Source: a virus
IMG/VR virus record: IMGVR_UViG_3300021197_001389
Location: 1-38,906 of that record
Direction: 5' to 3' (one strand)
Length of the DNA stretch: 38,906 bases
Part shown: positions 6,572-37,923 of the stretch, in pieces
Layout: every line of letters begins with the position of its first letter
How positions within the stretch are numbered: position 1 is the stretch's first letter
Notes under the pieces: generated by a model
The model's database searches: none
Told to the model about the DNA's origin: nothing
The model's input: the letters and a program-made list of their open reading frames with translations, nothing else
Program-made: the position numbers and the translations under genes

Positions 6572-9500
6572 TATGCCCTACCTTTTGTACCTTGTTGATT
6601 TAATAATCCACCAGGTCTCATTTCTTGTTGTAAATGTTGTTGTACCATATTTCCGATACTTCTTCCTAATCCTTGCATGCCATCGCCTGTTACTTGTGAA
6701 GATCCTTGTCCTTGACCATTCATACTAATAGAGACATTGACCGTGTTTCCACCACCGCCACCACCACGCATTTCAACAGGAATACTTCTATCGTTTCCTA
6801 AAGGTACTACGGCTTCTCTACCGTGTAGCTCTGCGAGATAACCTGAACCAGGACCATCTGCAATACCACCAGTTCTAAACTTAGTTGATTCTCCCCCATA
6901 CCTATTCATGCCTGGTATTGCTGAGATAGCTTCCATTGTGCCTCCCATTCCTGGGAACATCGCCATTAGTATCTTTAATGCAGCTGCTTTTGCAAACATA
7001 GCTGCTAAATCTGCAAGTACTGATTGTGCTAAATCTTTCATTCCATCTTTAAATGATTTTGTACCGTCTACCATTGTTTGGAACATAGATACGAAGCCAT
7101 TTGAAAGAGTACTTTGAATACCTTCCATTAGTTCGGTTTCTATCTTTAAACTTTCCATTGCGATAGCTTCGTTCTTCAGTTCTTTAATCTGCTCCACGGT
7201 AACCCCAAGTCCTTTTTGTCTAGCTTCTAATATGACTTTATTGAATGATGCAATTGCAGGATTTAATGAAAATACTTGTTCTCTTTTAAACTCTGTATTT
7301 TCTAACTGAGTATCAGATTTATCCATAAAGTTCAAACCTTTTTCAGTATCTTTTATGGTTTGAATTTTTTCCTCTAATAGCGCATTTTGATGTAAAAGAT
7401 TTATTCGTTTTGTTAAGATTTGATTATATTCTACGTCAGCATCAGATGTTGGATTAGTAAATAACTCCATATCTTTCATACCAGTTCTATCACTTACACC
7501 AGTAATACCTTCCATTTGAGTTTTAAGAGCAGTATTAAGATTTGTATTAGCAGTCTTAGTCTGTCCCATTTGGCTTATGCTACTAGCACGTTTATTTGCA
7601 GCTCCTTGTGCTCCGCCTGTAGTTTTTGCGAGTCGTGCTGTTTGTGCAGCTGCTAGAGCTACACTTCGTTGTGCCGCTGCTTGTGCTTGCGTCTGTTTTG
7701 TAACTTCTACTTGGTTTTTTAAAAGATCTATCTGTAATTGTAATTGTGCTTCTTTTCTGTCATTTAAGTATTCTTGTTTTGTAATTTCCAAGTCAGCATT
7801 AGCTAAAACGCCTTGCATATTGGTTAATTCTTGGTCTTGATAACCGAGTCTTATAATATACTTATCTAAACTTTCGTCGTCTCCTTGTGCCAACTTCTTT
7901 TCCATCGCAACTTTTTCTTCATCTGTTTTTAGTTTAGCAACTTCACCGGCATTTAACTTTTCAATTATAGAGTATGCACTTAGTTCTGCTGCTGATCTTT
8001 TAACAGCTAGTTTTGCTTCTTTATCTCCTAACGCGTCAATTTGCTTCTTAAGTTTCTCTGTTTGATTTAGAGTATCAAGACCAGCTGCATCAAACTTAGC
8101 AATATCTCTAGCATTTTCTAACTCTTTCTTCTGTTGTGCTATCCCAGCGTCCTGAATCTTTAGAGCTCTTGTTTTCATTCGGTTTTGGATTTTCTGCTTA
8201 GCTAGTAGCGTATCTTGAACTTCTTTATCTTGTCCTGGCTGTGCATCAATAGCAGCAATCTCTAGTTCTAAGCCTAGTTGTTCTCTAAGTATTTTTGTAA
8301 GGTTGCTTCTAACTGTTGCATCTTCTTCGAATCTGCTTGCTGTTCTACTATCGTCTGATTTTGCTAGTTCATTCATAGCACCTGTAAAAGATTCTAAAGA
8401 TTTAAGAGAGCCGTCTTCCTTATAGAAGCTAACCATCTGTGCTTTTAATTCTTTGAAGCCTGTCTTACCTGCACTACTATTATTCAGTAACTTTTTCTGG
8501 GAAGCAGTTTTCCCAAGTTTTTTTGTATCGTCTAAATCAAACTGTGAACTCTGCGCTACAGCTTTATTTTTTGCACCCTGTAAAGCTCTTGACTCAGCAT
8601 CAGCTGCCATTCCGGCTAACATAAGGTCAATATCATTTATACTAGCTGAGTATGCATCTACTATGTCTTTAAATGGAACATCTTTGAATTTTCTTATTTG
8701 TTTATCTAAAGCTTTATTTACTGTTCCTTGATTCTGGGCAAATCTTTTAGAAGCTTCTGAAGCATTTATAATATCGTTGGCTAAGCTTTTAAAACCTGCA
8801 GCTTGTTTCTCACCAATTTCAACGCCTCCCTCCATAGCTTCTGCCATTTCTTTGAAAGCAGGACTAAATTTAGAAGCGTTAGTTGCAAGGTTTGAAAACT
8901 GCTTCATTACATCGTCGCCAGGCTTAGCTCCTTTTTGTATTTCTTTGTTGTATGCTCTAATTTGTTTAGCTAAGTCCATGCTTTGGAATGCTTGGCCTGA
9001 TTGCTCTACTGACATTTTTAAATCAAGTAACTGTTCGTTAAGCCTAATATCGAGCATCTTATCCATTTCACCATTTAAATCGGAAAGGCTAGAAGTAAGA
9101 TCTTCTGTTTCTTTTCTCATCTTTTTGGCAGTTTCGTCTAAATCTTTAAACCAACTTACTAAACTAGTAACACCCTGTATTATCATAAAGACAATACCAA
9201 TTATACCAGCTGCCATCATAGCTTTATTCATAGCCCATGCTGCTGCTGTTGTTGCGGCGTTCATCGCTGCGAGAGTTCCTTGATACACTGCTTGTGTTGT
9301 TTTATATGCAACTCGTTTTGCATTCTCTCCTGCTTGTGTTGTTGCAACCTGTTTTATATTGTGGCCTTTCAACATAGCTTCTTGAGCATTAAGATGGAAT
9401 CTAAAGGCTCTTTTTTCTTGAGCGTTCATCTTCATATAGATGCCTTTCTTTTCGTTCATCATTCGTCTATAGGCTGCTATTTGTCTTTTATTTAGTCTGC

Positions 9501-10632
9501 CTGTCTCTTTTCCATCTGCTCCTTTATGTTTAAAAGATTTTACACCCATTTTACTAAGTGCGCCTTTACTGTCCTCTGCACTAGGCATGTCAGCTCCAAA
9601 AGCTTGACCCAATCCTGAAAAAGCTTCTCTAGCTCCTGAACCTGCTGTTTTCATTGCTTCAAACGAAGTCTTCATTTTCATTGTAGATGTTTCTAAAGCT
9701 GCGTTTAAATTTGGTAGTAAAGATTTGATAATAGGAGTAATAAATAAACCTACTGCAGCTACGAGTGCTCCTGTATTATCTTTAAAGAAGTTAAGCATTG
9801 GAATAATGCCTTTCATTATAAAGTTCTGAAAGCTAAGTAATAAATCGTCCATTTCTTTTGAAAATTGTCCCATAGCAAATGCATCTGGATCCATTTTTTC
9901 TTGAATTCTTCCATACTTAGTTTCTGCTTGTTCTAGAACGTCATTTAAAACCGCTTGAGTTCTTTCATACGCGTTTAGTTGTTCTCTAGTTTTCCCGACT
10001 GTCACAGCATACTTATCAGTTGCGTTTTCTAGTCGTAGAATAATACCGAGTTCGTCTAATAGTTCTGGTTCCGCTTTAGTAACACCTCGAATAAGTCTGT
10101 TAAATGAATCTTCCAAATCCCTACCAAGAGCAAGAGATGCATTAGTTGCTGCTACGCCTAACCCTTCTAGTTGACCTGCGCTTAATCCAGCAGCCACACC
10201 AATAGCCGCAGAACTAGCTGCCGCTTTAAAACTAAGCATACCATTAGTAGCTTCTTGAATATTAGTGGTTACAGACTTGTAAGCAGTACCCGTGACTGAC
10301 CCAAAGGCTTGTTGCCCTGCAATAAGGTTTCGAGTTTCCATAGAGGATTTTAAGAATTGAAAAGCTGCTGATACAGCAAATATCTGTGCAGCAATGGTGG
10401 CATAGACAGCCACAAGACCACCTTGCATGGTCTGTGCTTGCTTACTAAAGTTTTTTGTAGCGTTGGAGGATTGTTGAGTTACCCCTTTTATTCGTCTATC
10501 AGTAGTTTGAGAAGCGCCACCAAGAGCATTCATTTTCTTGGTTAGTTTTTCCGCTTCTTTTCCTGTGACTTTAAAAGAACCACCATCGGTGGTTTTGATA
10601 ATAATCTCTGCTGCTGTTATTTTCTTTGCCAT
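6571..10632 (-). CDS. H: Tape measure protein (lambda gpH-like)
   Basis: This is the longest gene in the window, at 1353 residues. It has an N-terminal AAQIFAVSAAFQFL region, hydrophobic segments near residues 280-300 and 465-490 (AAGIIGIVFMIIQGV), a long helical and coiled-coil middle rich in Lys, Glu and Gln, and a Gly-rich C-terminus with the common tape-measure ending HGREAVVPLGNDRSIPV. Tape-measure proteins set tail length at about 1.5 angstrom per residue, so I infer a tail near 200 nm. The neighbours are as expected: the G/GT chaperone genes upstream and M, L, K, I, J downstream. The hydrophobic segments may form the channel used for DNA entry. Confidence 0.93.
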   Translation of the reverse strand: MAKKITAAEIIIKTTDGGSFKVTGKEAEKLTKKMNALGGASQTTDRRIKGVTQQSSNATKNFSKQAQTMQGGLVAVYATIAAQIFAVSAAFQFLKSSMETRNLIAGQQAFGSVTGTAYKSVTTNIQEATNGMLSFKAAASSAAIGVAAGLSAGQLEGLGVAATNASLALGRDLEDSFNRLIRGVTKAEPELLDELGIILRLENATDKYAVTVGKTREQLNAYERTQAVLNDVLEQAETKYGRIQEKMDPDAFAMGQFSKEMDDLLLSFQNFIMKGIIPMLNFFKDNTGALVAAVGLFITPIIKSLLPNLNAALETSTMKMKTSFEAMKTAGSGAREAFSGLGQAFGADMPSAEDSKGALSKMGVKSFKHKGADGKETGRLNKRQIAAYRRMMNEKKGIYMKMNAQEKRAFRFHLNAQEAMLKGHNIKQVATTQAGENAKRVAYKTTQAVYQGTLAAMNAATTAAAWAMNKAMMAAGIIGIVFMIIQGVTSLVSWFKDLDETAKKMRKETEDLTSSLSDLNGEMDKMLDIRLNEQLLDLKMSVEQSGQAFQSMDLAKQIRAYNKEIQKGAKPGDDVMKQFSNLATNASKFSPAFKEMAEAMEGGVEIGEKQAAGFKSLANDIINASEASKRFAQNQGTVNKALDKQIRKFKDVPFKDIVDAYSASINDIDLMLAGMAADAESRALQGAKNKAVAQSSQFDLDDTKKLGKTASQKKLLNNSSAGKTGFKELKAQMVSFYKEDGSLKSLESFTGAMNELAKSDDSRTASRFEEDATVRSNLTKILREQLGLELEIAAIDAQPGQDKEVQDTLLAKQKIQNRMKTRALKIQDAGIAQQKKELENARDIAKFDAAGLDTLNQTEKLKKQIDALGDKEAKLAVKRSAAELSAYSIIEKLNAGEVAKLKTDEEKVAMEKKLAQGDDESLDKYIIRLGYQDQELTNMQGVLANADLEITKQEYLNDRKEAQLQLQIDLLKNQVEVTKQTQAQAAAQRSVALAAAQTARLAKTTGGAQGAANKRASSISQMGQTKTANTNLNTALKTQMEGITGVSDRTGMKDMELFTNPTSDADVEYNQILTKRINLLHQNALLEEKIQTIKDTEKGLNFMDKSDTQLENTEFKREQVFSLNPAIASFNKVILEARQKGLGVTVEQIKELKNEAIAMESLKIETELMEGIQSTLSNGFVSMFQTMVDGTKSFKDGMKDLAQSVLADLAAMFAKAAALKILMAMFPGMGGTMEAISAIPGMNRYGGESTKFRTGGIADGPGSGYLAELHGREAVVPLGNDRSIPVEMRGGGGGGNTVNVSISMNGQGQGSSQVTGDGMQGLGRSIGNMVQQHLQQEMRPGGLLNQQGTKGRA

Positions 10633-11058
10633 CTATTGTGTCTTTGCTCGCCTCGTGTGGGCGTCTTGCTTACGTTTAAGCTCAGTATTGATATTTATCG
10701 TACTCGAACTTTCTATATGTTTCAAGAAATAGCAAACAGTTTTTTGGTCTTCCACATTATTTATGTCTAGTAAGTCTTTTAGTGGTGACCAGTCCTTACC
10801 CATGTAAGAACCACTAGCTCCGTCCCATTTATCGGGGAGCATAGCGTGTATAACGAAAGCCTCCTGAATTTCTAAAGGAAAATCCTCTAGTTCAGGTGGC
10901 ATCTCATTTAGATCAGGTTCTTGACCTAATTGGTCGCACATTTGTAAATATGCGTCTACACTAATATTGTTAGTATAATACCTAGTTATTAAAGCAAGAG
11001 CCCAGGCTACTTGCTCTGCGTAAAATTTTCTAGATCGCCTACTTGTTCTGTTACCCAA
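10633..11058 (-). CDS. T: T domain of the tail assembly chaperone, probably made only as a G-T frameshift fusion
   Basis: The frame overlaps the end of the G-like gene by 52 bases. Its only early start is a TTG at 11058, and no good ribosome-binding site precedes it. A -1 slippage at 11028-11022 in the G gene leads into this frame at Tyr (codon 11022-11020), adding 129 residues. The product would be a 273-residue G-T fusion, against 279 in lambda. The added part is acidic in its middle and ends in a Lys/Arg-rich tail (KRKQDAHTRRAKTQ). In lambda, G and GT coat the tape measure while the tube polymerises. The position just before the tape measure supports the call. Confidence 0.82.
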   Translation of the reverse strand: MGNRTSRRSRKFYAEQVAWALALITRYYTNNISVDAYLQMCDQLGQEPDLNEMPPELEDFPLEIQEAFVIHAMLPDKWDGASGSYMGKDWSPLKDLLDINNVEDQKTVCYFLKHIESSSTININTELKRKQDAHTRRAKTQ

Positions 11059-21417: not shown

Positions 21418-21555
21418 TTATTTTCTCCTAACGCTTTTCGCGTCCTTTCCCTTGTTGTACTCCAAAGCGCGAAGCCTTTGCTTCGCGGCTTTTTTAGTCT
21501 TGGATAAACCGGGAGTATTTGTTATTGTCCAGCCTTTTTTCGTTTTACGAAGCAT
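21418..21555 (-). CDS. Very small basic protein (45 residues)
   Basis: An ATG at 21555-21553 overlaps the stop of the outer-membrane protein gene by one base, and the frame ends with TAA at 21420-21418 directly before the next start. The product begins MLRKTKKGWTITNTPGLSKT and continues with KKAAKQRLRALEYNKG; about a third of its residues are Lys or Arg. It fills the gap exactly, with overlaps of the kind seen throughout this strand, so it is probably real. Function unknown; nucleic-acid binding is plausible. Confidence 0.68.
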   Translation of the reverse strand: MLRKTKKGWTITNTPGLSKTKKAAKQRLRALEYNKGKDAKSVRRK

Positions 21556-22157
21556 TAGAATGCTTTGCTAATAAAAAATGCAGCTGAGTCTAAAAACTTA
21601 CCATGTCTGGCTCCGTCTAGAACTTCCATTCCGACTGTCCAGTTCTTCATCTCTCTAGAGACTGTAAGTTGCTGGTAGGTATCATCATTGTCAAACATAG
21701 CATGTCTAACTGAAATATCTACGACTTTAATGAAAGGAGCTTTAAGAGTTACCTCTTTATAGTTCTTATCTTTGTCGTCCATATCAGTCCACATAGCTAA
21801 TTCAAGCCAATTGTTCCCGCCTTTTACGAACCATTCTTCTACGTGGTCAATAGCTTTGTCGTCATATCTATATTGAATGACTCCGCCGTCCATATACCAT
21901 GTATCATTTAGGTTCCATCTGTAACCGCCATAAAGATCGTATTCCCAGTCCGCTTCTGCCATATCAACTTGTGATACCCATACGCCACCGTACATCCCTT
22001 TATAGTCTAGGTCTAAACTTCCTTGGAATGCTTTTCCACCCATAGTCTGGCTTTCGCCTCTAAAGTAGTAGTCACTCCATACTCCGACATTTCCATTAAC
22101 ACCAGCGAATGATGGTAATGCAAGTGTGCAAAGTAAAATTGCAAGTAGTTTATTCAT
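21555..22157 (-). CDS. Secreted outer-membrane beta-barrel protein, Gcw_chp (TIGR02001)-like
   Basis: A clear signal peptide (MNKLLAILLCTLALPSFA) is followed by GNVGVWSDYYFRGESQTMGG, FQGSLDLDYKGMYGGVWVSQ and alternating aromatic/polar strands to a terminal Phe (AFFISKAF), the usual last residue of outer-membrane barrels. The SDYxFRGxSQT and GxYxGxWxSQ segments mark the Gcw_chp family, bacterial outer-membrane proteins of unknown function. The gene is in a phage structural operon, coupled by ATGA to the preceding gene. It might alter the host surface during infection, for example to block superinfection, or change permeability; neither is shown here. Confidence 0.82.
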   Translation of the reverse strand: MNKLLAILLCTLALPSFAGVNGNVGVWSDYYFRGESQTMGGKAFQGSLDLDYKGMYGGVWVSQVDMAEADWEYDLYGGYRWNLNDTWYMDGGVIQYRYDDKAIDHVEEWFVKGGNNWLELAMWTDMDDKDKNYKEVTLKAPFIKVVDISVRHAMFDNDDTYQQLTVSREMKNWTVGMEVLDGARHGKFLDSAAFFISKAF

Positions 22158-24093: not shown

Positions 24094-24122
24094 ATTATAG
24101 CAAAATTTTAGGTCGTTGTCAA
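24094..24122 (-). promoter_or_regulatory. Consensus sigma70 promoter before the XhlA-like gene
   Basis: On the minus strand: TTGACA (24122-24117), 17-base spacer, TATAAT (24099-24094). It lies in the 77-base gap between the adenylate cyclase stop (24126) and the XhlA-like start (24048), separating the curli/cyclase block from the small-gene and head block. Confidence 0.88.
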
Positions 24123-24125
24123 GCA

Positions 24126-25895
24126 TTATTTTTGTATGGTATAAATTTTGACAGGTTCAGTCTTTCCTTTAACAGTTACCTCGTCGATAAAGTCATAGTT
24201 GTAACCCTCTACCATGCTATGCGCACTTATTATTAAATCTGTGTTGTACTGTTTACAACTGCTCTCTAAACGAGCAGCGAGGTTAACAGCATCACCGAGA
24301 ACGCTATAGTCGAAACGACTACTACTACCCATGTTACCGACAACACAAAGTCCTGTATTGATTCCGACTCCTGTATGGATTTCAGGGCTTCCTTCATTCC
24401 TGAGAACATTATTTAACTCCTCCAAAGCCTCTCTCATTTCAAGAGCTGCTGCTGTTGCCTTTCTTGCGTGGTCTTCCACATCTAGAGGGGCATTCCAAAA
24501 GGCCATGATGCAGTCCCCCATGTACTTATCAATAGTTCCCTCATGCTTCATAATGATGTCACTCTGATTAGTTAAAAAACGATTTACCAGCTCCACTAAT
24601 TTATGAGGCTCTGACTGGTAAAATTCCGAAATCGGGGTAAATCCTCGAATATCCGAAAAAAGAAAAGTTAGTTGTTTCGTCGACCCACCCAATCTCAGTA
24701 ATGATGGGTCTTTTTGAAGTGCTTCTACCTGAGCCGGGCTAACATAGGTCCCAAATTGTTGTTTAATCTGTAATCTCAGCAAGTACTGTGTAATAAAACT
24801 ACGGAATTGTACAATACTCCAGAATAAAAACAGTATAACTAGCGTGCCCGAAACGTCAAACAAGTAGGAAGACTCTACAAGCTTCCAAGAAGCGTAACCA
24901 AGTCCCCCTAATAGTGCTAAAATGATGGGTAGGCTTAGCCAAATGCTGCCTGCTACAGCCATAATTAGTACCATTCCGATTATTAGTGTTCCAAGTTCTG
25001 CTAAAAAGCTCCAAGAGGGCTGAGAAAGTGGTGTTCCACTAATTAAAGTATTAAGTACGGTTGCCTGAACTTCATGAGGGTACTTTGGACCGCCTGGAGT
25101 TGCGACAAGAGGAGCCACTCCCTCTGCAGTCACACCAAAAATTACAAATGGTGCTGGGATTGGCTCCTTCATGTACTCTGCTGCTGTCTGTCGATAGAAC
25201 TTTGTGTTCCAATTTGCAAAAACTAGTCCGTTTTCGTTAGTAGAAAGCTTACCATACGCTGGTACTCTTATCCACTCGACTCCAGTCTCTTCTGTTTTGA
25301 TCTGATAGCTTGGGTCGCCGACTGCTAGCCTCAACATCTCTAGTGAAAAGCTAGGATATATCTTATTTTCGCTTGCGATTGCGAGAGGCAGTCTTCTTAC
25401 GACTCCGTCTAGTTCGGGACTTGTGCTTATTAGCCCCACTCCGTAGCTTTCTAATGCTGATCTTAAAATTCCTGGGTAATTGTATAGCCATTCTGATGGT
25501 GTTCCATTGCCCAACTGCGCCGTACCGACATGTGGGCCTTGCTCAAAAGTTTGCGTGCTACCTATAAAGGATAAGACAGTAGGAAACTGATTGAGTGTTT
25601 GTTGAAATTCTTTATCTTTGCCGTGAATATCCTTATCTGGAAACGCTACTGTAATTCCTGGCACTCCTTGTGTCTTTCTTACAGCATCTGCATAAAAGTT
25701 TCTAGGTAGTGGGTAGCCTCCGTAAGCTTGTACTATTTCTTCATCAATGTCTACGAGTAAAATTGCTTCGTCTTGTACCACGTCTCTGCTCATAATTAGA
25801 GCATCAAGAGACTTGAGTTCTAGTATCTGAAAAGGATAGGGATTCCAAATAAAAAGACCTATAAAACAAAAGGCTATTAGTGCATTAGTTTTCAT
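24126..25895 (-). CDS. CHASE2-domain class III adenylate cyclase
   Basis: In 589 residues: an N-terminal membrane segment (residues 5-17), an extracytoplasmic CHASE2 sensor (about 25-290, with VDIDEEIVQAYGGYPLPRN), three closely spaced membrane helices (about 300-365) and a class III cyclase domain (about 405-589). Catalytic residues look intact: metal Asp415 (FSDIRGFT) and Asp461 (KYMGDCIMAFW), Lys457, and Ser531/Asn538/Arg542 in FDYSVLGDAVNLAARLE. Lys457 with a Ser/Thr at 531 favours ATP over GTP, so the product is probably cAMP. It would act in the inner membrane, sensing periplasmic signals. It lies after a FecR and curlin-repeat cluster. Such an enzyme is unusual in a phage and might reset host cAMP signalling. 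Confidence 0.92.
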   Translation of the reverse strand: MKTNALIAFCFIGLFIWNPYPFQILELKSLDALIMSRDVVQDEAILLVDIDEEIVQAYGGYPLPRNFYADAVRKTQGVPGITVAFPDKDIHGKDKEFQQTLNQFPTVLSFIGSTQTFEQGPHVGTAQLGNGTPSEWLYNYPGILRSALESYGVGLISTSPELDGVVRRLPLAIASENKIYPSFSLEMLRLAVGDPSYQIKTEETGVEWIRVPAYGKLSTNENGLVFANWNTKFYRQTAAEYMKEPIPAPFVIFGVTAEGVAPLVATPGGPKYPHEVQATVLNTLISGTPLSQPSWSFLAELGTLIIGMVLIMAVAGSIWLSLPIILALLGGLGYASWKLVESSYLFDVSGTLVILFLFWSIVQFRSFITQYLLRLQIKQQFGTYVSPAQVEALQKDPSLLRLGGSTKQLTFLFSDIRGFTPISEFYQSEPHKLVELVNRFLTNQSDIIMKHEGTIDKYMGDCIMAFWNAPLDVEDHARKATAAALEMREALEELNNVLRNEGSPEIHTGVGINTGLCVVGNMGSSSRFDYSVLGDAVNLAARLESSCKQYNTDLIISAHSMVEGYNYDFIDEVTVKGKTEPVKIYTIQK

Positions 25896-25980: not shown

Positions 25981-26763
25981 TCATTGCTGAGTAACTGAAA
26001 CAGTGCAACCACCTACTGTTACACAGTTTTGTGTTATAGAATAAGTTTTATTACTAGTGCTATCTTGAATAAGTGTTATATTTGTAGGCTGGCTGCCTTG
26101 TAGAGTAATAGTAGCATTGTGACTGCCACCACCTTTTTGTTGTACGTTTGCTATAGAACCGTCTGCAGTTCCATAGTAGTAAATATGTGAGTAACTAGAT
26201 CCTCCGTCTTCTTGGAGTACGTCATGGTCGACACCGTCCATGTGAATATCTAAATAATGAGTATGAGTACCTTTTTGTATAATATCTATATCATTAGTAT
26301 TTCCCCAAACATGCCCACCATAGGTAGCTCCACCTTCTTGGTATATGTTTAAGTTGTTGTTAGTACCGTCTATATCTCCACCCCAAGATTTGCCTGAGCC
26401 CCAGTAGGGAACCCAAGATATTTTATTATTAGCACCTACTTGTTTTAATATAATAGTATTCTCGCTATGTGCCATAGAAAAGTCTATTTCGTTATTATAC
26501 CCTATTTGATCAATAGTCAAAGTTACTTCGTCTCCATCAGTACCAACTTGATCTATGTGTACATGGTTATCTCCAGCTTGTAGCTCTGACATGAAAAAGA
26601 ATAGTAGTATAATGACGAGTATTAAACTGACCTGAACGTACCATGGCTTTTTCTCTTCGCCTTTTTTCATAGCCCAGCCATATAGTCCTGACTTTTCTCC
26701 AATACGGTGTGCCCAGTAACTAGGACTTGTCCAATCTTTTAGTGCTTTTAAAAATCTAATCAT
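25981..26763 (-). CDS. Membrane-anchored curlin-repeat protein
   Basis: The 260-residue protein has about 40 residues of cytoplasmic N-terminus, one membrane segment (about 43-62, VQVSLILVIILLFFFMSEL) and an exported part made of degenerate curlin-type repeats. These read as alternating hydrophobic strands with I-x-Q-x-G then Asn: VHIDQVGTDGDEVTLTIDQI, IILKQVGANNKISW, NLNIYQEGGATYGG, IDIIQKGTHTHYLDI, VQQKGGGSHNATITL. Curlin repeats (as in CsgA/CsgB) stack into amyloid beta-helices. A membrane anchor in place of a cleavable signal is unusual and might make this a nucleator or surface tether. It overlaps the FecR gene by one base. Confidence 0.8.
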   Translation of the reverse strand: MIRFLKALKDWTSPSYWAHRIGEKSGLYGWAMKKGEEKKPWYVQVSLILVIILLFFFMSELQAGDNHVHIDQVGTDGDEVTLTIDQIGYNNEIDFSMAHSENTIILKQVGANNKISWVPYWGSGKSWGGDIDGTNNNLNIYQEGGATYGGHVWGNTNDIDIIQKGTHTHYLDIHMDGVDHDVLQEDGGSSYSHIYYYGTADGSIANVQQKGGGSHNATITLQGSQPTNITLIQDSTSNKTYSITQNCVTVGGCTVSVTQQ

Positions 26764-27878
26764 TAGTTTGTCTGCCTTATAAGTATATTGATGGATTCTC
26801 CATCTCCTACAGTAATTAAACTCTCTTTTTCATCAGTAATAGTATTGATACGAGCATTTGCTCCTTCAGCTAGTCTAATACTAATAATTCCTGTAACTTG
26901 TCTGTAGAACCAAATTTGTCCAGTATCCTCAACTATAGTTTGATATTGAGTATCTTTATCGAATCCTGGTAGTGTGCCGACTATGTCTACGCTACCAAAG
27001 TCTCCTCCGCTTTTCTTTCTAGAGAGCAAATCTGCTTCTTCTATTATTTCTAGTAAGTCTTGCAAGAAGTCTACATCTAAGAGGTCTCTATCTAATTCTG
27101 TGTACTCTAGTTGATTCTCATCTAAGTAGTCTGTCTCTAAGTCGTTAAACTCTAAAAAGTCAGCCGTTAGAATATTGTTTGAGTTATTTTCTGTCTGTTG
27201 TTCATCTATCTGTTGCTGAACTTCTGCGGGAGGATTGACAATAAACATGTTGTCTATCATTCCAACAGTAACGTTTGTAATTGTAACTGGCGGTGCAGGA
27301 GAGGTAGAAATAGTGCTCACCATCGTTGCTTGATAGGCTTGATCGAGAGTTACTACACCTCCTTCGTTAGCTACAGTAATAATTCCTGAAGAACTACCGT
27401 CAGCATTTGGTAATAAAATGATTAAGCTTCTACCTAATTCATCTATTGTTGTTGTAAAATCTGTTCCCCTAATACCAATACTAGCAGTAGGAGTTTGAAT
27501 ATCTATATTTGCTTTGTTCATTAGACCTAGCTTACCTGATGTAAACCTGGCTGTTCCCATTGCAAATTTCATAACCATCTTAGATTTAGAAGGATCAGGG
27601 TCATAAATAACCTCATCAATCAAAACCTTTGAGTGTTCTGTAAGTCGTAAGTTAGAGTCATCATTGAACGAGACTGCAATACGGCCATTGTCAGTAAGTA
27701 GTGTATCGTATAGTAATATTGTACTACCCACTACAGCTGACATAGCCGCATTGTCGTCACGTTTAATGTTGCCCTCTCCAGTTTGTTCAAATATATTTCC
27801 AATATCTGCCCAAAGAAGTGAGGGGAGAAATATACTAGTCGCTAGTATCTTTTTGGTTAATTGTAATAACTGCATCAT
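26763..27878 (-). CDS. Secreted FecR-domain protein
   Basis: After a signal peptide (TKKILATSIFLPSLLWA) comes a FecR domain (about residues 45-165): VVGSTILLYDTLLTDNGRIA, LRLTEHSKVLIDEVIY, GTARFTSGKLG and IDIQTPTASIGIRGTDF. The last segment is the most typical. The middle (about 235-285) is a run of acidic Leu/Asp repeats (FLEFNDLETDYLDE; LEYTELDRDLLDVDFLQ), and the C-terminus is beta-rich. FecR domains sit in the periplasm as sensors or structural modules. Genes with FecR and CHASE2 cyclase domains are often neighbours in bacteria, as here. The start overlaps the preceding curlin-repeat gene by 44 bases. Confidence 0.85.
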   Translation of the reverse strand: MMQLLQLTKKILATSIFLPSLLWADIGNIFEQTGEGNIKRDDNAAMSAVVGSTILLYDTLLTDNGRIAVSFNDDSNLRLTEHSKVLIDEVIYDPDPSKSKMVMKFAMGTARFTSGKLGLMNKANIDIQTPTASIGIRGTDFTTTIDELGRSLIILLPNADGSSSGIITVANEGGVVTLDQAYQATMVSTISTSPAPPVTITNVTVGMIDNMFIVNPPAEVQQQIDEQQTENNSNNILTADFLEFNDLETDYLDENQLEYTELDRDLLDVDFLQDLLEIIEEADLLSRKKSGGDFGSVDIVGTLPGFDKDTQYQTIVEDTGQIWFYRQVTGIISIRLAEGANARINTITDEKESLITVGDGESINILIRQTN

Positions 27879-28560
27879 CTGAATTTACCTGTAAATCAAT
27901 TTTTCCAGAACAACTTGAAACACCAGTTGGACACGTACCTGAAGACTGCATAATGTCAATGTTTCCATCGTCACCTGTATAGTCAACAATCAATATTTGA
28001 TCTGCGTCTTTTTGTGTAGTATTATAGTCGTTGCTGCTTCCTGTTAAGTCTAGCTCCCACTTAGTATTGCCAGAGTCTATAACGGTTGTGAAAACGTTTG
28101 ATCCTCCAAGTAATATTAAATCGTAGTCTACAGATTCTGCGGCAGCATTATATGCTAAGTCTAAATTCCAAGTATTGGAATCTCCTGTTACCGCTAAGTC
28201 CATGTCTAAACTGTCAGCAGACCCACCGTAACCAATATTCCAATCAAAGATATTACTATCTCCAGTAAAGGTCATATCGATTTGGGACTGATCGAGTACA
28301 ATTGGTCCAAACAATTGGTTTAAATTACCAATTTGATCCAAATTTAAAGTTATGTTACTTCCAGTAATCATCATGTCAGTAGCAACTGAGCCACTACTAA
28401 TTGTACCACCGAATTTGTTTGCATAACCTTTTTGATCAATTGTCAATGTCAGATTATCTCCAGTTTGTTGCAGAAAAATCTCATTATCTGTTGAATCTGC
28501 CATGACATTTACAGAAAGTATCATTGCGAATAATATGCTATTTAGCTTCTTCACTTTCAT
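27835..28560 (-). CDS. Secreted curlin-repeat protein
   Basis: A signal peptide (MKVKKLNSILFAMILSVNVMA) is followed by about 220 residues of curlin-like repeats: LTLTIDQKGYANKFGG, ITLNLDQIGNLNQLFG, then a set of more divergent units carrying GDSN and LDL patterns, ending with AVITINQKDTSD. The Gln/Asn/Gly spacing (I-x-Q-x-G-x-x-N) is that of CsgA/CsgB units that form surface amyloid through CsgG. Two Cys residues (CPTGVSSC) lie near the end. AAGGAGAAG precedes the start. It overlaps the end of the CsgG gene by 23 bases, showing one coupled operon. Confidence 0.84.
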   Translation of the reverse strand: MKVKKLNSILFAMILSVNVMADSTDNEIFLQQTGDNLTLTIDQKGYANKFGGTISSGSVATDMMITGSNITLNLDQIGNLNQLFGPIVLDQSQIDMTFTGDSNIFDWNIGYGGSADSLDMDLAVTGDSNTWNLDLAYNAAAESVDYDLILLGGSNVFTTVIDSGNTKWELDLTGSSNDYNTTQKDADQILIVDYTGDDGNIDIMQSSGTCPTGVSSCSGKIDLQVNSDDAVITINQKDTSD

Positions 28561-29386
28561 CTTCTCCTTGTTGTTCCTGGACTTTCCAGAAACCCCTCTC
28601 GTCGCCTTGAATAATAATGGCGACTACAGCAGCTTCAATAGCTGCTCGCACTGCAACAGTGACACTTTCGTTCTCTGCTACACCGTCTTCTATCTCTATC
28701 AGTTGAGTATCCATATCGACAAATTTAAATACGTCGAAACCTCCACCTACTGACAAAATAGTCTTTTTGGTTTGGACATTCAACAAAATTTCTCCTGTAA
28801 GAGTACTAATTCCACGTAAACTTACAGTAACTACATCTCTTCTGTAGCTTTGTTGTGAGCCAATCCCTAATGTTCTTGCTCCTCTACCACCGCTTTCTAC
28901 ATTTGAGTCGTAGCCAATAATGCCACCCTCAAATATTATTCCTGCAAATAGTAAAGATTGAATTCCTTGATTCTTTTCTTCTGGTCTTTCTTCTCTAGTA
29001 CTTCTGACAATTTGTCTTTCTCTTACTAGATTATCAATACCGTGTCTTTCTACAACTCTAAACCATTTTCCATTAGCGGCTGTTTTAAGGGCATCAATAA
29101 GTAATTCCGTACTTCCCTGAGTGACAGCAGTACTAAAGTCAGCTAGATTATCTCTACGCTTTCTTTGTCCTGTTAGGTCTTCAAAGTTATAAACGGCTAC
29201 TACAGGCATTACTTCTGCCGGTGGGAAGTTAAGTAGTCGTTCGTAGGTAGGAAGCTGCACAATTTCTGGCAGCTCTAAACACTCACCAAACTGCTTTGCG
29301 AAGCCTTTGGTACATGTGTCGTTTATCATGGGTACAGACGCGCAGCCTGTAATCAGTAGTAGAGTGATGACTCCAAGAAGCCTCAT
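28538..29386 (-). CDS. csgG: CsgG-like curli secretion lipoprotein (outer-membrane pore)
   Basis: I chose ATG 29386 (TAATG with the upstream stop), giving 282 residues against 277 in E. coli CsgG. The start reads MRLLGVITLLLITGCASVP, a lipoprotein signal with Cys15. The body matches the CsgG fold: VVAVYNFEDLTGQRK, FSTAVTQGSTELLIDAL, WFRVVERHGIDNLVRERQIV, FAGIIFEGGIIGYDSNVESGG, VTVSLRGISTLTGEILLNV and a C-terminal helix. CsgG forms a nonameric outer-membrane channel that exports curlin subunits. Its partner CsgF lies directly upstream, and curlin-repeat genes lie directly downstream. CsgE-like and CsgC-like genes were not found. A phage copy is highly unusual. Confidence 0.92.
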   Translation of the reverse strand: MRLLGVITLLLITGCASVPMINDTCTKGFAKQFGECLELPEIVQLPTYERLLNFPPAEVMPVVAVYNFEDLTGQRKRRDNLADFSTAVTQGSTELLIDALKTAANGKWFRVVERHGIDNLVRERQIVRSTREERPEEKNQGIQSLLFAGIIFEGGIIGYDSNVESGGRGARTLGIGSQQSYRRDVVTVSLRGISTLTGEILLNVQTKKTILSVGGGFDVFKFVDMDTQLIEIEDGVAENESVTVAVRAAIEAAVVAIIIQGDERGFWKVQEQQGEDESEEAK

Positions 29387-29856
29387 TAGAAGCCTCCAGT
29401 GCCAATCGGAATATCTATCGTAGTAGTACTTCCGTCCTCTGCTGTTATGGTAAGACGAATAATATCCGTACAGACTCCATCTTCTGTACAAGTATTCGTT
29501 CTTTCGTAAGTAATGTTGTTGCCTTCTAGACTGAAGGAACCGAATTGAGAAGCCTCTTCGTTACCGAACATGTTATCTACTAATTGCTTCGATAACTGTG
29601 CGAATATTCGGGATTCGAGGTTTCTTATAAATTTTGCCAGAGTAGTGTTATCTGCTTCTCTTTCTGCAGCTTTAAGTGCTGACTCGATGTCATCTTTTAT
29701 CTGGTCTTTACGTGATTTTTCTTGATTTTCTATCGTTAAATAGTGTGCACTAGTACCTATCCCACTGAAGGAAGGATTCTTAAAACCTTGTACAATTTCA
29801 TCTGCTACCGCTAGGTTTACTAGTAGTAGACTTATCACTCCTATTAAGTATTTCAT
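29386..29856 (-). CDS. csgF: CsgF-like curli assembly protein
   Basis: The 156-residue protein starts with a signal peptide (MKYLIGVISLLLVNLAVA) and then VQGFKNPSFSGIGTSAHYLT, which aligns with the conserved FxNPxFxG...LLN start of mature CsgF. This N-terminal segment in E. coli CsgF binds inside the CsgG pore. The rest has a Lys/Asp-rich helix and a beta-rich end (DIIRLTITAEDGSTTTIDI) resembling CsgF's last domain. It overlaps the CsgG start (TAATG) and the preceding membrane-protein gene by 59 bases, so it is produced with CsgG. Confidence 0.88.
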   Translation of the reverse strand: MKYLIGVISLLLVNLAVADEIVQGFKNPSFSGIGTSAHYLTIENQEKSRKDQIKDDIESALKAAEREADNTTLAKFIRNLESRIFAQLSKQLVDNMFGNEEASQFGSFSLEGNNITYERTNTCTEDGVCTDIIRLTITAEDGSTTTIDIPIGTGGF

Positions 29857-30082
29857 TTTCTCTTATTTGTAGCACCGTGTCTATCTTCTCTTGTAGACGA
29901 ATAATATCATTATCAAGCATTCTTACTTGATCGATAAGTTTTATCAGAGCCATATGCTGGCTACCGATCGCTGGGTTTATTACTGTTTGAATTGCATTCC
30001 AAATGTAATAAACAAAGTACCCAAGTGACACCATCATCACTACTGGGAAACCAAACTCAGAGATTAGTCCTGCTACATCCAC
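29798..30082 (-). CDS. Small membrane protein with coiled coil (second of a pair)
   Basis: The 94-residue product begins with a GTG codon that overlaps the stop of the previous gene (TAGTG). Residues about 10-33 (FPVVMMVSLGYFVYYIWNAI) form a membrane helix, followed by a coiled-coil segment (LIDQVRMLDNDIIRLQEKI) and a short charged tail. The layout parallels the neighbour at 30082-30375, with which it probably shares origin. They head the CsgF/CsgG cluster and could be holin-like or accessory membrane proteins. Function unknown. Confidence 0.75.
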   Translation of the reverse strand: MDVAGLISEFGFPVVMMVSLGYFVYYIWNAIQTVINPAIGSQHMALIKLIDQVRMLDNDIIRLQEKIDTVLQIRENEILNRSDKSTTSKPSGSR

Positions 30083-30375
30083 TAGTCTCTCCTCACATCA
30101 ATAGTACCGTCTTCCACAAAGTTTTCTGCTCGGGCGATTCTATCTAAGTCTGGTTTTAATCCTAGAGCTGCGCTTACGGCAGTATCTAGTTTTATAACAT
30201 CGTTGTTAATTGTCTTTACTCTTGTTGTTAATGATTTAGCAAACATTTCTAATAGTTTTACCTTAGCAACAGTATCATTTATCTTCTGTTGCATGATGAT
30301 AAACAAAAACCATAACATCACTAGTGCTCCTGCTATCGGAGCTCCTACTTCTGCTATGAGCTTAAATACTTCCAC
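30082..30375 (-). CDS. Small membrane protein with coiled coil (first of a pair)
   Basis: 97 residues with a GTG start overlapping the A-type carrier stop (TAGTG). A membrane helix lies at residues about 10-28 (GAPIAGALVMLWFLFIIM), followed by a helical segment (INDTVAKVKLLEMFAKSL; TRVKTINNDVIKLDTAVS). The DVIKLD and DIIRLQ coiled-coil segments and the Val-Gly-Ala or Phe-Gly-Phe starts suggest a duplicated pair with the next gene. Function unknown. Confidence 0.75.
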   Translation of the reverse strand: MEVFKLIAEVGAPIAGALVMLWFLFIIMQQKINDTVAKVKLLEMFAKSLTTRVKTINNDVIKLDTAVSAALGLKPDLDRIARAENFVEDGTIDVRRD

Positions 30376-30689
30376 TAGAAATAGGCGCTAACACCACAAC
30401 CACATTTTGATTGTTCGTTAGGGTTAAGGAAAGTAAATTCTTCGTTGATTCCAGTTACTTTCCAATCGAGCGTTGCTCCATCTATCAGGGGCAGACTCAT
30501 TTTATCTATTGCTATTTTAAATTTGACAAAGTCAAGTATGTAATCATCTGGCTCAAGCAGATTATCCAAATAATCAAACTTATACTCGTAACCAGCACAA
30601 CCGCCAGGCTTAAGTGCGATACGTACTCCACCATGGGATTCTGAGCGTTCCAAAAGTTTTTCGTATGCTTCATCAGTTACTTCTATCAT
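30375..30689 (-). CDS. A-type Fe-S cluster carrier (IscA/ErpA/HesB-like)
   Basis: Taking the ATG at 30689 gives 104 residues starting MIEVTDEAYEKLLERS, the usual family start; an upstream ATG at 30716 adds nine. The three cluster-binding cysteines are present: Cys31 in LKPGGCAGYEYKF, and Cys96 and Cys98 in SKCGCGVSAYF. A-type carriers pass Fe-S clusters from the IscU scaffold to target apoproteins. An IscU gene is two genes upstream in the same operon, which supports a linked function. It overlaps the sulfotransferase-like gene by 17 bases. Confidence 0.9.
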   Translation of the reverse strand: MIEVTDEAYEKLLERSESHGGVRIALKPGGCAGYEYKFDYLDNLLEPDDYILDFVKFKIAIDKMSLPLIDGATLDWKVTGINEEFTFLNPNEQSKCGCGVSAYF

Positions 30690-31284
30690 AATTAAATTCT
30701 TTAAAATCACGAGCATAGAATTTATTTACAAATTCTTTATACTCGCCAGAGCAATCTACATCTGCTCCTTTGTTTATATGTCGTTCCTCAGTGTTCAGTC
30801 TCTTCCAAATTGTTCGTTCTTCTAATTTATGTACTTCTACTTCTGGTCTTACAAATGTCCATTGAGGCATAAATAAATGTTCAAGTCTTCTATCATTTGC
30901 CTGAGCAGTATCCCAGACTGTCTCCCATTCCTCAATCAATTTTATATATCTACCACTAGGTAAATACTGTTCTGCCCTTGTAGTAAACTCTTCAAAAGTC
31001 CAAGTACTAATTAAACCCATTGTTCTTAGATGTCTGTAGATTGACTTCCATCTGTCATATGGGTTTCTTACTTGTGTAATATACTCCGCATCTGGATAAA
31101 GCACTGCTGTTCTATCGTATGTTGCATGTTGGTTTATAGTATGAAAACCATGAATATCCGTTTCCGTCTTCATGCCTTCCTTCCAATTCCAAAATGTCTG
31201 TTTCTCTTTAAATCTCAAACTTGCAATACTTGTACCACCAGTCTTAGGAATCCAAATAAATATTAGATTATCACTTAGGACCAT
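30673..31284 (-). CDS. Sulfotransferase-family protein
   Basis: From ATG 31284 the product has 203 residues (MVLSDNLIFIWIPKTGGTSI). The 5'-phosphosulfate loop IPKTGGTS and the 3'-phosphate motif VRNPYDRWKSIYRH are those of PAPS-dependent sulfotransferases. The rest is helical and shorter than many cellular enzymes (250-300 residues). It would transfer sulfate from PAPS to a sugar or lipid; the acceptor cannot be told. It lies between IscU and the A-type carrier, overlapping both. Modified surface glycans are a plausible effect, but this is inference. An earlier TTG at 31296 is less likely as start. Confidence 0.84.
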   Translation of the reverse strand: MVLSDNLIFIWIPKTGGTSIASLRFKEKQTFWNWKEGMKTETDIHGFHTINQHATYDRTAVLYPDAEYITQVRNPYDRWKSIYRHLRTMGLISTWTFEEFTTRAEQYLPSGRYIKLIEEWETVWDTAQANDRRLEHLFMPQWTFVRPEVEVHKLEERTIWKRLNTEERHINKGADVDCSGEYKEFVNKFYARDFKEFNYDRSN

Positions 31285-31729
31285 TATTATGCCCAATCAT
31301 TGACTGGTCTAGGATAGGGTGAGTGTAATCATCTTGATTCTTTGTCTCATAGTCTATCATTGCTTGTCTAATTGCATCTTCTGCGAGTACACTACAATGT
31401 AGTTTAATCGGCGGTAAATCTAGTACCTCAGCGATGTCTTTATCTTTAATTAACTTAGCTTCTTCAATTGTCTTTCCCATCATCATATCCACAAACAAAC
31501 TTGAAGACGCTATTGCACTTCCACAGCCGTATGTTTTAAATTTAACATCTACAATCTTTTCATCGTCGTCAAGTAATAGTTGCAACTGCATTACGTCACC
31601 GCACGCAGGTGCTCCCGCTAGTCCTGTTGCGACTCTCGGGTCTTTCCTATCTAACCTTCCAACTGAATGTTTTTGAGGATTTGCTAATACTGCCTCAAAT
31701 CTTTGTACTACTTCTTTTGAGTATGCCAC
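31271..31729 (-). CDS. iscU: Fe-S cluster scaffold protein IscU
   Basis: The 152-residue protein matches IscU closely. The active residues are Cys43 and Asp45 (AGAPACGDVMQLQL), Cys69 (YGCGSAIASSS), and His111 and Cys112 (PPIKLHCSVLAEDAI), the same spacing as E. coli Cys37, Asp39, Cys63, His105 and Cys106. The chaperone-binding motif LPPIK is kept (LPPVK in E. coli). A C-terminal extension of about 25 residues (NQDDYTHPILDQSM) is not usual. IscU builds [2Fe-2S] and [4Fe-4S] clusters from the cysteine desulfurase, so host IscS would be needed. Start overlaps the upstream oxygenase gene by 35 bases. Confidence 0.95.
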   Translation of the reverse strand: MAYSKEVVQRFEAVLANPQKHSVGRLDRKDPRVATGLAGAPACGDVMQLQLLLDDDEKIVDVKFKTYGCGSAIASSSLFVDMMMGKTIEEAKLIKDKDIAEVLDLPPIKLHCSVLAEDAIRQAMIDYETKNQDDYTHPILDQSMIGHNNGPK

Positions 31730-37302: not shown

Positions 37303-37923
37303 ATGACAAAACTAGAACTACAACAAATAGCATTAAACCAAATAGTTGAGGGAGACTTCGGCAAAGTGGCGGTAATCTTAGAAGGTAGAGATACTGCTGG
37401 TAAGACAGGTACAATTCGTGAGATAACTCACTACCTGCCAACAAGTAAGTATTCGATTTCTTTGTCAACAATGCCTAGTGCATGGGACATGGATAATTGG
37501 CTAGAGTCATGGGAAAATAAGCTACCTGGCGATAATCAAATAGTATTTTTCGACAGGAGTTGGTATAGCCGAGCCATGGTTCAGAAGATGAATGGCTGGT
37601 GTACAGATGAGCAGTATGAAGATTTCATGGCAAGAGTACTTGACTGGGAAGCTAAGCAAGACACGACTTTTATCAAGTGTTGGCTAAGCATAAGTGAGGA
37701 AGAACAAACAGCGAGAATTAACAATCGCCAAGTATCTCCTCTAACCAAGTGGAAGTTCTCACCCAATGATGCGCTGGCCCTCAGCAAGTACGACCAGATG
37801 ACACTACTGAAAGAGCGTGTGCATACAACTCTTGGAGAATGGCATAGCATTGATTACAACAACAAAGCGTCAGGTAGACTCGCCTTACTAGAAAATGTAG
37901 TAAATATTTTGAGCCAAGCGTAA
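37303..37923 (+). CDS. ppk2: Polyphosphate kinase 2 (PPK2)-family enzyme
   Basis: The 206-residue protein has a Walker A VILEGRDTAGKTGTIREI (residues about 24-41), Walker B IVFFDRSWYSRAMVQ (about 80-94), a lid region with EEEQTARINNRQVSP and LTKWKFSPNDALALSKYD. These are PPK2 motifs (typically EGRDAAGKGG, FDRSWY, EQxxR and WK-S--D). PPK2 enzymes move phosphate between polyphosphate and nucleotides, most often making NTP from NDP or NDP from NMP. It is shorter than many cellular PPK2s and lacks the N-terminal extension. The usual Gly after the P-loop Lys is Thr here. It is a single gene with its own promoter, probably expressed early. Confidence 0.9.
   Translation: MTKLELQQIALNQIVEGDFGKVAVILEGRDTAGKTGTIREITHYLPTSKYSISLSTMPSAWDMDNWLESWENKLPGDNQIVFFDRSWYSRAMVQKMNGWCTDEQYEDFMARVLDWEAKQDTTFIKCWLSISEEEQTARINNRQVSPLTKWKFSPNDALALSKYDQMTLLKERVHTTLGEWHSIDYNNKASGRLALLENVVNILSQA

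Follow-up and report, generated by a model that had tools for sequence, protein, structure and literature searches.

The window, by which we mean the whole stretch of DNA that we analysed, is the 38,906-base IMG/VR virus record IMGVR_UViG_3300021197_001389, and its minus strand carries at 24126..25895 a gene with an ATG start for a CHASE2-class III adenylate cyclase of 589 aa. The protein was mapped as a predicted N-terminal TM helix (residues 2-17), a CHASE2 domain (about 23-290), three TM helices (296-381) and a catalytic domain (402-589). Pfam matches to CHASE2 (residues 10-309, E 6e-29) and Guanylate_cyc (residues 406-588, E 3e-23) were both over the cut-off, and a confident AlphaFold2 model (mean pLDDT 88.6) gave the same order, with a single helix at the N-terminus, then the sensor domain, three membrane helices (296-314, 318-341, 349-381) and the catalytic domain. 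By both Pfam and the model, CHASE2 precedes three TM helices as in CHASE2 sensor proteins, and the sensor-type membrane cyclase of the original prediction was thus borne out by the Pfam match and the helices of the model.

The complete active site that had been claimed for the enzyme was likewise recovered on alignment: D415, K457, D461, S531, N538 and R542 line up with D/K/D/T/N/R of Pseudomonas aeruginosa CyaB, both metal-binding aspartates are retained, and position 457 holds the adenine-specifying Lys rather than the Glu of guanylyl cyclases, as it does in 80/80 T5-like and 80/80 T4-like relatives. Position 531 is a Ser where the second adenine Asp would stand; among 13 bacterial relatives, nine have Ser and four Thr. 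A Lys at the equivalent of 457 selects ATP over GTP, and Ser or Thr at the equivalent of 531 marks class IIIb. The Lys at 457 therefore points to ATP as the substrate, and the Ser at 531 places the enzyme in class IIIb. The best structural match to the catalytic half was the class IIIb adenylyl cyclase CyaC of Spirulina platensis (Z 26.3, rmsd 1.6 over 184 residues), followed closely by CyaB (Z 26.0); the catalytic fold and residue set are alike in all three, with Ser for Thr at the adenine position in the window cyclase. Judged from these residues, the protein very probably makes cAMP, and we infer both ATP as its substrate and a homodimeric state. The list of structural matches was filled by catalytic domains, so that it barely covered the CHASE2 fold, and a sequence match for the CHASE2 part was not found among solved structures.

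A curli cassette ending in the cyclase

The original prediction treated the cyclase as a lone and costly gene for a phage. This did not hold: the cyclase closes a conserved curli (type VIII secretion) cassette, whose CsgG, CsgF and two curlin-like genes the prediction had not noticed. The other members lie upstream on the same strand, overlapping or nearly so, and run as a pair of small membrane proteins, CsgF, CsgG, the first curlin-like protein, the FecR-domain protein and the second curlin-like one. The arrangement indicates that the cyclase ends a phage curli operon. The two small proteins (30082..30375 and 29798..30082, both on the minus strand) are tandem paralogues of 94-97 aa that each have one predicted TM helix and belong to phrog_18771; neither Pfam nor NCBIfam identified a kinase domain in them, and one of the small membrane proteins beside CsgF had a weak holin-like match. 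CsgF (29386..29856, minus strand; Pfam E 4e-13) and the CsgG outer-membrane pore (28538..29386, minus strand; Pfam E 7e-48) were both matched over the cut-off, and CsgG likely starts at an internal ATG before a lipoprotein-type signal, not at the listed TTG. The curlin-repeat subunits are less plainly marked. The first repeat protein (27835..28560, minus strand, 241 aa) had a weak Curlin_rpt match and the second (25981..26763, minus strand, 260 aa, with a predicted N-terminal TM helix) had a Curlin_rpt match and a partial match to the CsgA NCBIfam; both Pfam matches were below the cut-off, and the two curlin-like families matched each other in a profile comparison with a probability of 100. 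A few bases past the cyclase stop, at 24094..24122 on the minus strand, stands a consensus sigma-70 promoter (TTGACA-N17-TATAAT) that is kept at 12/12 bases in 54/79 relatives and at 11/12 in another 21/79. Because this perfect, conserved promoter directly follows the cyclase, the next transcription unit likely starts there.

The FecR-domain protein (26763..27878, minus strand, 371 aa) has a signal-peptide-like N-terminus, an acidic linker modelled at low confidence and a beta-rich tail that ends in a curlin-like strand. A link between it and the cyclase had been suggested together with direct adjacency; the link stands, but the two are not immediate neighbours, as the second curlin-like gene lies between them. 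In our model, the FecR domain resembled the cell-surface signalling domain of PupR (Z 15.3) and a Parabacteroides anti-sigma factor (Z 13.6). We rejected a regulator of the ferric-citrate type, in which a TM helix separates a cytoplasmic anti-sigma part from the FecR domain: hydropathy gave no TM helix in the phage protein, its N-terminus is signal-peptide-like, and the FecR domain is all that the two have in common. The last residues of the tail follow [IV]x[IV]xQ or a close variant, as they do in many curlin-like proteins from the operon that encodes it. This ending was present in 54/54 viral copies and in a bacterial copy described below, L085, compared with 1/16 FecR proteins from loci without curli (Fisher p 2e-14, for related sequences and a motif chosen after looking). 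The motif is short and profile comparison of the tail with curlin-like proteins was weak; we dropped homology between them and kept the strand as a motif only.

Three lines of evidence, namely a terminase large subunit about 50% identical to that of T5-like phages, a tape measure whose N-terminal part resembles the pore-forming tail tip protein pb2 of T5, and siphovirus tail genes (L, M, NlpC/P60 and a tail terminator), led us to assign the window virus to the T5-like siphoviruses on gene content. Elsewhere the window encodes an A-type Fe-S carrier (30375-30716), an IscU/NifU-like scaffold (31271-31729), a PPK2 polyphosphate kinase (37303-37923) and, at 21555-22157, a Gcw_chp outer-membrane-type protein with a signal peptide, a gene that only some relatives carry.

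Such a cassette is not new, contrary to what had been implied. The csgF and csgG genes were reported in pelagimyophages in 2020 (PMC7029224) and csgGF in phage Melnitz, within a cassette that is the same as that of the window, in 2022 (PMC9004378). Wittmers et al. (2022; PMC9599517) described the full T8SS module, FecR and adenylate cyclase included, from myo- and podoviruses among the pelagiphages. The paper thereby placed phage cyclases of this type next to curli genes, and it found the viral cassette to be widespread in the ocean. The genes and their order are identical in the window, and the HTVC008M cyclase is 37% identical to the window cyclase over 99% of its length. Two differences stand out: the window virus is T5-like, with siphovirus-type tail genes, a lineage that the paper does not name, and the paper puts one or two histidine kinases where the window has its small membrane proteins without a kinase domain. 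We did not find a T5-like case among the open-licence papers searched. The phage curli module with cyclase and FecR was thus already known; what we add is the T5-like lineage, the grouping with L085, the tail strand of FecR and the search for a cAMP reader.

Conservation in phages and a bacterial counterpart

Relatives of the cyclase occur on viral contigs at least 600 times. The 80 best viral relatives keep the terminase of the window or other neighbours of its lineage as far as the contig ends reach. Where enough upstream sequence was available, T5-like loci had FecR in 36/36 cases, CsgG in 26/26, CsgF in 26/26 and a curlin-like gene in 27/27; for T4-like loci, the figures were 36/37 for FecR, 23/24 for CsgG and 21/22 for CsgF. 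The six catalytic residues were invariant in 80/80 T5-like relatives and also in the T4-like ones (80 sequences, one with missing columns). The one departure noted was the Melnitz cyclase (8977-11028 of its locus), in which Asp stands at 531 and Ser replaces the transition-state Asn at 538, and the activity of this enzyme may be reduced. Pairwise dN/dS against seven relatives was 0.08-0.17, with the sensor and the catalytic part both constrained, and the cyclase gene is under purifying selection. Together, the number of relatives, the invariant residues and the dN/dS values go well past what chance would give. The corresponding CsgG values were left out as they were faulty at several loci through the wrong TTG start. 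In one relative (L011:278-2071), the sensor half is like that of the window and the catalytic half is closer to the HTVC008M type, and recombination inside this gene is possible.

A Caulobacteraceae MAG, L085, carries the complete row CsgF-CsgG-CsgA-CsgA-FecR-cyclase. A tree of 89 cyclases set the curli-linked group, made up of the T5-like, T4-like and L085 sequences, apart from the 34 other bacterial CHASE2 cyclases by a branch with an SH-aLRT support of 100%; the tree was built by a quick method and L085 sits on a long branch. The operon has 53% G+C versus 65% in its left flank, and may for this reason itself have been acquired from elsewhere. Among 299 genomes of the same order, 33 had the cyclase and L085 alone had curli genes beside it (flanks of about 1.5 kb), and among seven owners of bacterial CHASE2 cyclases, the CsgG family was found solely in the genome of L085. 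According to PMC9599517, cyclase and FecR do not occur within bacterial T8SS operons; L085 is a counter-example to this statement, albeit one from a MAG.

FecR proteins adjoin CHASE2 cyclases outside this group as well, in 13 loci of our genome scan and in several genomes of the order of L085. In three bacterial CHASE2-cyclase loci (L099, L121 and L134), the FecR HMM matched ORFs of about 1,900-2,200 aa, possibly giant surface proteins. At 34 of about 76 bacterial loci, we also found nearby a member of a gene cluster whose representative joins cNMP-binding and HlyD secretion domains. The portion of PMC5498481 drawn on here describes the CHASE2 cyclase CyaD1 of Sinorhizobium meliloti, the neighbouring FecR-domain protein SMc02177 and the regulator Clr. 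As in the phage, CHASE2 and a cyclase domain occur there near a FecR-domain protein; unlike in the phage, where no such receptor was found, the CRP-type receptor Clr is encoded beside CyaD1, and that portion does not mention curli genes. It also states that the FecR-domain protein was not needed to perceive the one plant signal tested. A Campylobacterota cluster (PMC9239204) likewise has a CHASE2 cyclase and a FecR-domain protein but adds a phosphodiesterase and a TPR protein, with curli genes unmentioned. Two Acinetobacter phage matches were set aside as unrelated in context, being free-standing cyaA genes beside housekeeping genes.

The host and the reading of cAMP

A pointer to a host was L278, a T5-like phage contig of 14,620 bases with the gene order of the window and a 57% identical cyclase. 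The genome that holds it is placed in the family of two genomes with a 16S probe sequence that we take to be a SAR11 probe; the genome holding L278 itself gave no match to this probe. The location of the contig hints at SAR11 as the host, a binning error being possible. The IscU of the window was most similar to sequences from a gammaproteobacterial MAG (63%), a Rhodospirillaceae MAG (62%) and SAR86 (57%). In the likely host family, Pelagibacteraceae, a protein of the cNMP-binding family PF00027 was present in only 4/79 genomes, which may be incomplete, and a class III cyclase over the cut-off in 2/79, one of which was the phage contig L278. No PF00027 protein turned up in the window, in HTVC008M or Melnitz, or in ten T5-like records; of these 13 phage records two are complete genomes, but most of the T5-like ones are fragments. 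No phosphodiesterase was identified in the window.

Our preferred reading, to which we give a probability of roughly 60%, is that the gene product works as a homodimeric, membrane-bound adenylate cyclase of class IIIb type, belongs to a phage-borne curli cassette and senses by way of FecR. What can be read from sequence, and what this reading explains best, is a set of domains with a complete active site, a cluster of genes that T5-like and T4-like marine phages have kept, and purifying selection. In its favour we also count the confident model with its match to CyaC and CyaB, the separate grouping of curli-linked cyclases, the L085 operon, the FecR proteins beside CHASE2 cyclases elsewhere, the likeness of the FecR domain to that of PupR and the curlin-like tail strand. 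Against it stand the PF00027 searches, in which no effector appeared in the phage records or in 75 of the 79 Pelagibacteraceae genomes, the S. meliloti FecR-domain protein that was not needed for the plant signal, and the short, weakly matching tail motif. We infer that FecR is the partner of CHASE2 and that the state of the curli is the signal. The CsgG/CsgF pore would export both curlin-like proteins out of the infected cell; the FecR-domain protein, periplasmic and with its curlin-like end strand, would signal to the CHASE2 domain, which also lies in the periplasm, how export or fibre assembly stands; and CHASE2 would then switch the cytoplasmic cyclase, so that cAMP changes. A bolder and rather doubtful form of this proposal is a closed cAMP circuit foreign to the host, in which FecR-relayed curli sensing is combined with a receptor outside the known cNMP-binding family, in a host normally without cyclase or receptor.

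The original prediction had cAMP shifting host metabolism, or a periplasmic signal linked to phage timing. In a fuller form of this, an active cyclase would flood the host with cAMP and alter its metabolism or the timing of the phage by way of a CRP-type regulator, and the curli genes would just happen to lie nearby. Conservation of the active site agrees with this, and a CRP-bearing host would be expected to respond, given that all 14 cellular cyclase owners tested had cNMP-binding proteins. The route through CRP nevertheless found no support where it was looked for: CRP-type sites numbered 6 in the window against 18.4 expected, which is below chance rather than enriched, the Clr box was not enriched either, a PF00027 protein was not found in the 13 phage records, and most of the 79 genomes from the likely host family were without a cNMP-binding protein. 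The curli linkage is, moreover, near absolute and the cyclase tree follows it, and we regard the flooding of the host as quite improbable.

A different use of the cassette, such as lysis timing or uptake through the CsgG pore with the cyclase as its gate, strikes us as unlikely, though the small membrane proteins beside CsgF and the holin-like match of one of them would fit it. The Melnitz authors proposed a pinholin- or secretin-like role, and Melnitz-infected cells were not seen clumping, which counts against a curli reading (PMC9004378); set against this, two conserved curlin-like fibre proteins are encoded that would be superfluous for a bare pore. A role of the cyclase in opposing or imitating a defence based on cyclic nucleotides, such as Pycsar, is very improbable. 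PycC profiles do match its catalytic domain (E 1e-27), which could happen with any class III cyclase, but the match covers this domain only, and the CHASE2 sensor, the adenine-type residues and the curli context speak otherwise. We also rejected a Pycsar cyclase proper, as no Pycsar effector gene lies beside the cyclase and its neighbours are curli genes.

Returning to FecR-relayed sensing by a curli-linked cyclase, the enzyme remains intact in no fewer than two unrelated lineages of virus, the T5-like and the T4-like, which points to genuine signalling in infected cells. Should the host be SAR11, the cell in which cAMP is made would have hardly any known way of reading it, and the question that results is which receptor does so and whether cAMP controls fibre export. 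Besides the phages, the complete operon of L085 gives a cellular system in which this can be looked for.
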